DNA from: an uncultured Pelagibacteraceae bacterium
GTDB lineage: Bacteria; Pseudomonadota; Alphaproteobacteria; Pelagibacterales; Pelagibacteraceae
Length of the DNA stretch: 64,000 bases
Direction: 5' to 3'
Assembly (NCBI GenBank): GCA_902533075.1
Contig: CACAKN010000004.1
Location: forward strand, 1-64,000
The notes below the pieces were generated by a model. The model did not search any database. It saw only the letters and a list, made by a program, of their open reading frames with translations, and had not been told where the DNA came from. Position 1 is the first letter of the stretch. Every line of letters begins with the position of its first letter. Below are positions 20,801 to 24,639 of this stretch, piece after piece. Both the position numbers and the translations under genes were made by a program.

Positions 20801-21259
20801 ATGGAATCGTTTAAAAATTGGATGAAAGAAGCAGCAAACATTTTATTTGATGATAGTAAAAATGATTTAAGAGCTCTTCCAAAGACTGTTAGATTGCAAA
20901 TTCTGTTAGTCTTAAGTTTTATTTGGACTACTGTTTTTAGTTTATATGTATTTTCATACACCACTTTTGCATTTGGTTGGGCAGGACTTTTTGTAGCCCA
21001 CGTTGGATTAATATTTGCAGTTTATATGACGTTTAAACATTTCCATAGAGCTGAGGAAAGTTCTGCTAGTGTTTTCAAAACAAAAAATTTTGATCCATTT
21101 AAAATAATGGTTATTGTTTTTGTGGTTGTGTTTATCTTCGTTTTTTCAAAAGGGATTGAAGTATTAACAAGTCCTAACCCCTATTCTTATTCAATTCCTT
21201 ACGATGGTTCTTCAAAATCAGTGTTTGAAAAATGGCTACCATTTAGTAAAGATAAGTAA
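20801..21259 (+). CDS. membrane protein of unknown function
   Basis: ORF with several hydrophobic segments, co-directional with psiE-like gene. Confidence 0.6.
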   Translation: MESFKNWMKEAANILFDDSKNDLRALPKTVRLQILLVLSFIWTTVFSLYVFSYTTFAFGWAGLFVAHVGLIFAVYMTFKHFHRAEESSASVFKTKNFDPFKIMVIVFVVVFIFVFSKGIEVLTSPNPYSYSIPYDGSSKSVFEKWLPFSKDK

Positions 21260-21639
21260 TGGAAAAAATTGCCAAAAATTTACAACTAGTTTTAATGGTA
21301 ATCATTTTAATTAGCACTGTTATAGCGGTTGGAATTGAAATTAATAAAATGTTTCTTGTTAAGTCAGTAACTTTAGCTGATTTACTATTAATGTTTCTTT
21401 ACTTAGAAGTGTTGGCAATGGTTAGAGTTTTTTGGGATCAACAATCGATTAGCATAACCTTGCCACTTTTAATAGCAATCACTGCACTTGCACGATTTAT
21501 TATTCTTCAAGGAAAAGAAATGGATCCAACAGCATTGGTTTATGAGGCAGTAGCTATAGTTCTCATTGCTGGAGCGATTGTTATCTTAAGATTAAGACAT
21601 AGTGATAAATTAGGTCTTAAAAGAAAAAAAAATAAATAA
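21259..21639 (+). CDS. PsiE-like (phosphate-starvation-inducible) membrane protein
   Basis: Four-TM protein with LLLMFLYLEVLAMVRVFW and ALARFIILQGKEMD. Confidence 0.7.
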   Translation: MEKIAKNLQLVLMVIILISTVIAVGIEINKMFLVKSVTLADLLLMFLYLEVLAMVRVFWDQQSISITLPLLIAITALARFIILQGKEMDPTALVYEAVAIVLIAGAIVILRLRHSDKLGLKRKKNK

Positions 21640-21644
21640 TCTTA

Positions 21645-22787
21645 ATGAATTTTGGGACGTCAAGAGCTTCGGCTATCGAAAATCTTAATAGATTTGTAGA
21701 CCAAAATTTATTTGAATATTCTAAGTTAAGAAATTTTGATTATGGTCCAGACAATAGATCAAATATTTCGTGCCTTTCACCTTATATTACTCACGGAATT
21801 ATATCAGAATTAGAAGTAATCAAAAAATCATTAAGCAAATTTTCATTCTCTAAAAATGAAAAATTCATTCAAGAAGTTTTATGGCGAACATATTGGAAGG
21901 GTTGGTTAGAATTAAGACCTAATGTTTGGACTGATTATTTAAATGAATTAAGAAAAATTCGTAAAGAATTTAAAGACAATCAAAACTATAAAAATGCAAT
22001 AGAGGGTAATACAAACATCGAGTGTTTTAATGAATGGATAAAAGAATTAAAAGAAACTAATTATTTACACAATCACGCAAGGATGTGGTTTGCAAGTATC
22101 TGGATTTTTACTTTGGATTTACCTTGGCAACTGGGTGCAGAATTTTTTATGAAACATCTTTATGATGGAGATGCTGCATCCAATACTTTAGGATGGAGAT
22201 GGGTTGCCGGAATTCAAACACAAGGAAAAAATTATCTGGCTAGTGAATGGAACATTAAAAAATTTACCAACAACAGATTTAGTAATATCAAACTTAATGA
22301 AAATGCTCCTCCGAAAACAAGCGATAAAACTTATGCTGCATCAAAATTGGAGTTTAACAATCCACAAAATCTTGAAGAAAAAAATCTTCTTATTTTTGAA
22401 AATAATTTGTCTTTTGAAATAAGTGATTTTAAAGATCAAAAATTTAAAAAGATTTTTTTAATTTCTAACAAAAATGAGAACCGAACCATAGAACTCAGTG
22501 AAAAATTATTAAAATTCAAGTCTCAATTAATTGAAGATCAAAAAAAGAGATTGGAAGAAAAATCAATCAATACTGAAATTATAGATTTAAGTGAGATACA
22601 GAATATTAATGAAACTTATTATGGTTTATATCCTACAGTTGGTGAAAACCTAGATTTTATAAATACAAATAATTTAAAAATAGAATTTCTGTATAGAAAA
22701 TTAGACGAATTTTCTTGGCAATATTGTAATAAAGGTTTTTTTAATTTTAAAAATTATATTCCAAAAATAATTACAACTTTTAATTAA
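21645..22787 (+). CDS. photolyase/cryptochrome-type FAD-binding protein with apparent domain permutation
   Basis: SCLSPYITHGIIS; NYLHNHARMWFASIWIFTLDLPWQLGAEFF; LYDGDAASNTLGWRWVAGIQTQGKNYLASEWNIKKFTNNRF; N-terminal antenna domain absent. Confidence 0.88.
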   Translation: MNFGTSRASAIENLNRFVDQNLFEYSKLRNFDYGPDNRSNISCLSPYITHGIISELEVIKKSLSKFSFSKNEKFIQEVLWRTYWKGWLELRPNVWTDYLNELRKIRKEFKDNQNYKNAIEGNTNIECFNEWIKELKETNYLHNHARMWFASIWIFTLDLPWQLGAEFFMKHLYDGDAASNTLGWRWVAGIQTQGKNYLASEWNIKKFTNNRFSNIKLNENAPPKTSDKTYAASKLEFNNPQNLEEKNLLIFENNLSFEISDFKDQKFKKIFLISNKNENRTIELSEKLLKFKSQLIEDQKKRLEEKSINTEIIDLSEIQNINETYYGLYPTVGENLDFINTNNLKIEFLYRKLDEFSWQYCNKGFFNFKNYIPKIITTFN

Positions 22788-23005
22788 AACCACCTAAACA
22801 TTCCGATAATTCCAGCCGTTGCATAAAAGAATTGTAAAAATAATATTCCTCTATGACCACCCCTATAAGCCCAAATTCCAATTAAAATTGCAGATATAAG
22901 TAATAAACAAAAACCAAAAAATTCTATTCCAATATTTAAGGCAACAAATAATGAATATAAAATTGCCGTAATAACCCCTGCCCATTCAAAAATTTTATTA
23001 TTCAT
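22784..23005 (-). CDS. small membrane protein of unknown function
   Basis: 73-aa hydrophobic ORF. Confidence 0.55.
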   Translation of the reverse strand: MNNKIFEWAGVITAILYSLFVALNIGIEFFGFCLLLISAILIGIWAYRGGHRGILFLQFFYATAGIIGMFRWF

Positions 23006-23020: not shown

Positions 23021-23149
23021 TTAGCTTAGCTTAGAACACTTCTTAGAACAATATTTTACTCTATCCCAATTTAGTTTCCATTTCTTTCGCCAAACAAAAG
23101 GTCTTTTGCAAACTGGACAAGTTTTGGATGGTAAATTTTCTTTTCTCAT
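23021..23149 (-). CDS. DUF2256-like zinc-ribbon micro-protein (42 aa; not in ORF track)
   Basis: Own translation: MRKENLPSKTCPVCKRPFVWRKKWKLNWDRVKYCSKKCSKLS; ATGA overlap with the upstream photolyase stop. Confidence 0.85.
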   Translation of the reverse strand: MRKENLPSKTCPVCKRPFVWRKKWKLNWDRVKYCSKKCSKLS

Positions 23150-24639
23150 CAAATTGTATTTTGTTTAATAAATTTATCAGCCTCAGATAAAATCAATTTT
23201 TTTCTATCTGTTTTCATTTTATCAAAAATTCTTACCATCATTGATAGTCTTGGGTTAGTTAAAAAAAATTTTCTGTTTCGATCTATAAATCTCCAATAAA
23301 GACCATCCATTGTATTGCACCACTCTCCTTTTTTAAAATCCATCATCTTCATAAAATAAGCAGACCCACAGATATATGGTTTTGTTGCAAATATTCCGCC
23401 ATCACTAAATAGTCCCATACCATAAACATTTGGTACCATTACCCAGTCAGAAGAGTCTACAAACATTTCCATAAACCATTTGTAAACTACGTTTGGCTTA
23501 ATCTCACAAAGGTTCATAATGTTAGATAAAATCATCAGTCTTTCAATGTGATGAGACCAGCCATGGTTTAATGCATTCTTAATTGCATAATCTAATGGTG
23601 GCAAACCTGTGGTTCCATCATACCAAGTCTTTTTCATTTTTCTATTTTGTTTAAAAAAATTTTTTGTTTCCATTTCCTCTGAATAACTTTGATAAATTCC
23701 TCGCATAAACTCTCTCCAACCAATTACCTGACGAATGTAGCCTTCTAAAGAATTCATTCTTATTTTATTTTTTTTATGAAATTCTAAAACTTTTTGAATA
23801 ATAAATTCAGGAGTAATTAAACCTAAATTGATATAGGGGCTTAAAGCACTGTGAAATAAAATATTATCTTTTTGATTTACTGCATCTTCATAATCACCAA
23901 ACAAATTTGATTTTTCTTTTATAAAAAAATTTAGTAGTTTAACCACATCATCAAATTCTGTAGCCAACCAAAAGTAATCTGTACTACCTGGATGATCTTT
24001 AAATAATTTTTCTACGATAGGTTTTAATTTTTTCGTGTGATTAGTTTCATTAATTTTAGGAAATTTTGGTATTGAAATATCTTTTGGTAATTTATTTCTG
24101 TTATCCTCATCAAAGCTCCACTTTCCTCCAATTGGATTTCCATCAGCACCCATTAATATTCCTGATTTTTTTCGAACCTCTTTGTAAAATGTTGCCATAA
24201 AAGGTTTTTTTGATTTTCTTAAGTAATTTTTGAATTCACCTCTTGAGTTTAAAAACATAGGAGTTTGAACAACATTCCAATTAATTTTTTCTTTTTTAAA
24301 AAATTGAGAAATTTTTTTTTCAAAAAACTTATCTTCGATTTCAAAACTAGTAATCTCTTTAATTTTTTTTGAATTAATAATCTTTTTTAATTTTTTAAGA
24401 TAATCATCTTTAAATTCTTTATCCTCAATTTTTGTGTATTCTAATTTAAATTTATTCTTTTTGAGTTTATCTGCATAAGATCGCATGGAAGATAAGAATA
24501 ATAGTATTTTCTGCTTATGATGTTTTTCATAAGTACATAAACCATTGTCTTCTGCCATAAAGAATATATGGTCTTTTTTGAAGCGGTCGAGGTATTTTGA
24601 TGGAAATAATTGATTACCAAGTATAAAAAATAACTTCAT
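23149..24639 (-). CDS. cryptochrome/(6-4) photolyase-related protein (FeS-BCP/PhrB-like)
   Basis: LFFILGNQLFP; GWSHHIERLMILSN; GMGLFSDGGIFATKPYICGSAYFMKMM. Confidence 0.88.
   Translation of the reverse strand: MKLFFILGNQLFPSKYLDRFKKDHIFFMAEDNGLCTYEKHHKQKILLFLSSMRSYADKLKKNKFKLEYTKIEDKEFKDDYLKKLKKIINSKKIKEITSFEIEDKFFEKKISQFFKKEKINWNVVQTPMFLNSRGEFKNYLRKSKKPFMATFYKEVRKKSGILMGADGNPIGGKWSFDEDNRNKLPKDISIPKFPKINETNHTKKLKPIVEKLFKDHPGSTDYFWLATEFDDVVKLLNFFIKEKSNLFGDYEDAVNQKDNILFHSALSPYINLGLITPEFIIQKVLEFHKKNKIRMNSLEGYIRQVIGWREFMRGIYQSYSEEMETKNFFKQNRKMKKTWYDGTTGLPPLDYAIKNALNHGWSHHIERLMILSNIMNLCEIKPNVVYKWFMEMFVDSSDWVMVPNVYGMGLFSDGGIFATKPYICGSAYFMKMMDFKKGEWCNTMDGLYWRFIDRNRKFFLTNPRLSMMVRIFDKMKTDRKKLILSEADKFIKQNTI

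Follow-up and report, generated by a model that had tools for sequence, protein, structure and literature searches.

A FAD-domain-first photolyase of SAR11, probably of NewPHL/Phr7 type, with a likely displaced counterpart of the canonical N-terminal domain at its C-terminus

NewPHL photolyases were described by Emmerich et al. (2020, Nucleic Acids Res 48:12845; as cited in PMC9426592 and PMC13274461) as carrying the FAD domain first, followed by a C-terminal 'Z-domain', and the passages of PMC13274461 (2026) that cite this work credit NewPHLs/SPLs with repair of CPDs in single-stranded DNA and with an 'inverted domain topology'. A 2022 mBio study (PMC9426592) gives Phr7 an N-terminal FAD domain and a C-terminal Z-domain, notes that the Phr7 enzymes of D. 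shibae and M. mesophilicum have been shown to be single-strand CPD photolyases, and also describes the split Phr4/Phr5 and the fused Phr6, which have the reverse order and Fe-S cysteines; SAR11 is unmentioned in its text. PMC8948257 reports a Trp dyad for NewPHL, and PMC12083526 states that the FAD-contacting Asn (E. coli N378) is conserved in NewPHL. A literature search on circular permutation in photolyases returned nothing relevant, and the name 'SPL-28' found no match in the literature search.

We analysed the first 64,000 nucleotides (the window) of contig CACAKN010000004.1 from an uncultured Pelagibacteraceae (SAR11) bacterium. The plus-strand ORF at 21645–22787 starts with ATG and encodes a 380-aa protein, identical in translation to that quoted in an earlier, sequence-only reading of this DNA. 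It comprises, all on the plus strand, a helical FAD/DNA-binding photolyase domain (residues 1–210; 21645–22274; placed by Pfam, alignment and residue scoring), a variable interdomain linker (residues ~211–242; 22275–22370) delimited by alignment and showing no regular structure in the AlphaFold2 model, and a C-terminal alpha/beta domain in the 'Z-domain' position (residues 243–380; 22371–22784; alignment, AlphaFold2 and HHalign), which ends in a conserved RxxDxxxW....GFFxFKxxIP motif. We regard the gene as very probably encoding a NewPHL/Phr7-type CPD photolyase of the SPL (short photolyase-like) clade, whose tail is the counterpart of the canonical N-terminal domain (N-domain), displaced by gene fusion; the assignment to NewPHL/Phr7 is made from the position in the family and from published features, the studied enzymes being compared by description.

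The sequence-only reading had the protein opening with its FAD domain and lacking an N-terminal alpha/beta domain. This is borne out by Pfam, which places PF03441 (FAD_binding_7) at residues 74–198 of the window protein (E 3e-18) and finds nothing N-terminal of it, and by alignments in which solved full-length photolyases begin to match from their residue ~180–228 at residue 3–10 of the window protein, indicating that the whole canonical N-domain is absent from the front. An N-terminal domain overlooked in frame upstream, which the same reading had raised as a possible error, is ruled out by the Pfam result together with a PsiE-family gene (21259–21639) whose stop lies 6 bases before the photolyase start.

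On the minus strand, the window holds a convergent neighbour (23149–24639), a homologue of prokaryotic 6-4 photolyases (DPRP/FeS-BCP family) in which the CxxC...C Fe-S cysteines seem to be missing (KPYICGSAYFMKMMDFKKGEWCNTMDG, compared with KPYAAGGSYINKMSDYCKGC in another alphaproteobacterium); in several other SAR11 genomes, too, a gene of this family is found close to the NewPHL gene. It is directly followed by a gene for a 42-aa DUF2256 protein (23021–23149, minus strand; PF10013, E 2e-19), which overlaps its stop codon and lies under the cut-off of the ORF list. A 73-aa putative membrane protein (22784–23005, minus strand), weakly similar to NMN_transporter (E 0.013), is encoded between the photolyase genes, and the 3′ end of its gene overlaps that of the NewPHL gene.

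The window protein was matched in 22 of 241 Alphaproteobacteria genomes at E ≤ 1e-30, mostly by fused forms and in three by tail-less relatives. At all six tail-less loci examined, one of them from Deinococcus QL22, a small alpha/beta ORF (~130–170 aa) lies directly downstream, its start usually overlapping the stop of the tail-less SPL by a few bases. A profile of these partner ORFs, searched against the 241 genomes, gave seven strong matches, every one directly downstream of a tail-less SPL, and the next three were N-domains of ordinary class I-type photolyases. HHalign aligned the split partner with the canonical N-domain end to end at 97.9% probability (E 5.6e-13; HHalign E-values are those of single comparisons) with a score of 79, where none of 60 shuffles exceeded 18, and blastp aligned it with the Deinococcus fused tail at ~32% identity (E ~1e-20). 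The Deinococcus fused protein itself carries PF03441 at 63–179 and then PF00875 at 261–356 (E 6.7e-4), and a second Deinococcus tail and split ORFs match PF00875 as well. For most split ORFs and Deinococcus tails no other relevant Pfam family matches better, if any does (down to 1.8e-4), these PF00875 matches falling below Pfam's curated cut-off. By sequence comparison, the split partner is clearly homologous to the canonical N-domain. In Deinococcus sp. QL22 (L156, 1884–3175) the FAD and alpha/beta parts are two genes with a 4-base overlap; on three other Deinococcus plasmids they are fused.

A tree built from FAD domains sets the SPL clade apart from class I (support 100/99) and unites the fused alphaproteobacterial family in one clade (100/99), inside which the member from Ruegeria sp. 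TM1040, of the same bacterial family as Dinoroseobacter, is grouped; the Deinococcus fusions fall among the split forms (98/96). Every form having both pieces has the FAD domain in front, and the survey of homologues proposed in the sequence-only reading found this order in the fused alphaproteobacterial and Deinococcus forms alike. The simplest account is that neighbouring genes fused, probably on more than one occasion, and that a FAD-domain gene thereby joined the alpha/beta gene downstream of it to yield the C-terminal alpha/beta domain. Repeated splitting instead of repeated fusion is also possible. The earlier description of the protein as circularly permuted thus holds for the reversed order and for a tail akin to N-domain homologues, but the route was probably fusion of adjacent genes. 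We see about an even chance that the alpha/beta domain is present throughout the SPL/NewPHL clade, as a separate downstream gene or a C-terminal fusion, and that SPLs are not one-domain relics; if so, the proposal of SPLs as domain-less ancestors of all photolyases would need revision, and some SPL/NewPHL members would be two-subunit photolyases.

Residues 243–380 of the window protein are probably a relocated, divergent counterpart of the canonical N-domain. The alpha/beta character given to the tail by the sequence-only reading is confirmed over ~135 aa by the full-protein AlphaFold2 model (mean pLDDT 72, pTM 0.73, from a shallow 41-sequence alignment), in which five strands alternate with helices as b-a-b-a-b-a-b-a-b, followed by two C-terminal helices (pLDDT mostly 70–93). 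The structural search it had suggested was less informative: the tail-only AlphaFold2 model was poor (pLDDT 53) and gave no convincing match in Foldseek, and with the full model Foldseek retrieved photolyases over a stretch as long as the FAD domain (~200 columns), by sequential alignments that are blind to permutation. The tail alone, too divergent in sequence, matched no Pfam family, and a PDB profile search with it returned chance matches only. Direct HHalign comparison of the SAR11/alphaproteobacterial tails with canonical N-domains was weak (score 20.7–27.7, at times within the shuffle range), and the tail was identified via the split partners in its place. Against the split partner these tails score 32–35, ~7 SD above shuffled profiles (12 ± 3, maximum 23) and in register from the first strand, whereas control comparisons with response-regulator, ETF and Usp profiles score 12–20.

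The near-noise direct comparison and the unmatched tail-only model would suit a protein that lost its N-terminal domain and gained an unrelated C-terminal Rossmann-like domain, the likeness being convergent. We consider this unlikely, given the in-register match to the split partners, well above shuffles and controls, and the position of the tail after the FAD domain, the same as that of the Deinococcus tail, a PF00875 homologue. The choice left by the sequence-only reading, between a domain swap and loss plus a new tail, falls in favour of the swap, since the nearest relatives of the tail are ORFs downstream of tail-less SPLs that are themselves N-domain homologues. The evidence for N-domain origin is strong for the alpha/beta piece across the clade, and moderate, not conclusive, for the window tail itself.

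Alignment to E. coli photolyase equates E77, W80, N143, M147 and W186 of the window protein with E274, W277, N341, M345 and W384, N180 with N378, and W184/W161 with W382/W359. The positions of E. coli E274, W277, N341, M345, W384, D372, D374 and N378 are invariant in all 30 fused alphaproteobacterial rows, as are W184 and W161 among the 30 representatives of this family. The column of E. coli W306 holds W in 17/17 class I rows and in 0/30 fused-family rows, so that a Trp dyad is left. The Fe-S CxxC is absent from every fused alphaproteobacterial row scored (29 of 30) and present in 3/3 Deinococcus fused rows and in four of the five split rows scored. The N-terminal helical domain would bind FAD and a UV-damaged pyrimidine dimer, and blue light would excite FADH–, from which an electron would pass to the dimer and split the cyclobutane ring; flavin photoreduction would proceed via the dyad W184 and W161, and the two domains probably pack together as they do in normal photolyases. 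By analogy with NewPHLs, the window protein may repair CPDs on single-stranded DNA. The missing third Trp of the electron-transfer chain and the other photolyase homologues in SAR11 genomes would also accord with a sensory cryptochrome-like protein without repair activity, but the tested lesion-contact and FAD residues are all invariant (30/30 family rows) and related NewPHLs are reported as CPD photolyases (PMC9426592), and such a sensor is improbable.

Most genomes of the window's genus (SAR11) have the photolyase gene (182 of 199, and 95 of 103 among the best, high-quality ones), in the same frame and nearly always at full length. The closest named contigs, Pelagibacteraceae single-cell genomes, encode proteins 97% identical to the window protein. 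Alphaproteobacterial homologues outside SAR11 are more divergent than those within the genus; plasmid records of Ruegeria, Asticcacaulis, Novosphingobium, Niveispirillum and Peteryoungia match at 33–35% identity over 98–99% of the query. Within SAR11, purifying selection acts on the tail (median dN/dS ~0.15) as well as on the FAD part (~0.08). The full-length gene in SAR11 relatives, its genus-wide presence and the selection on the tail establish the tail as real, and refute the idea that faulty annotation or assembly joined a truncated photolyase gene to a chance extension downstream; we found no point in favour of such an artefact, which the same frame in other alphaproteobacteria also contradicts. 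The viral contigs searched held no relatives of the window protein, and the phages searched matched the FAD domain only.

Between the window gene (21645–22784) and several SAR11 relatives, synonymous divergence (pS) is ~0.5 in the FAD half and 0.08–0.3 in the tail, a sharp difference suggesting that the 3′ half of the SAR11 gene may have recombined. Beside six of the non-SAR11 homologues there are often genes for DUF3429 membrane proteins, and also an NAD(P)/FAD amine-oxidase-like gene or AarF/UbiB kinases.

Among known systems, class I CPD photolyases share with the window protein a homologous FAD domain and active site, but have the alpha/beta domain first and a Trp triad and form a separate clade; the window protein shows no PF00875 before its FAD domain and lies outside the class I clade (100/99). 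Like the SPLs of Xu et al. (2021, Mol Biol Evol 38:4505; as described in other papers), it belongs to a clade of its own beside class I photolyases and has no N-terminal alpha/beta domain; unlike in that description, the alpha/beta domain sits C-terminally or is encoded by the gene that follows. Phr4+Phr5 and Phr6 of marine Synechococcus and Cyanobium (PMC9426592) share the reverse order, and the split and Deinococcus forms resemble them, but their Fe-S cysteines are absent from the SAR11/alphaproteobacterial family. With NewPHL, none of the compared features differs: the FAD domain is first and an atypical short alpha/beta 'Z-domain' last, the Fe-S cysteines are missing, and the Trp dyad and the FAD-contacting Asn are conserved. 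Since the window protein fits Phr7/NewPHL on every tested feature, its architecture is already known, and what we add is modest. A photolyase of the single-strand-DNA type with reversed order is placed in almost all genomes of a SAR11 genus that is abundant in the sea, and split-gene intermediates link the poorly characterised Z-domain by sequence to the ordinary photolyase N-domain, a link that bears on the claim of ancestral domain-less short photolyases.
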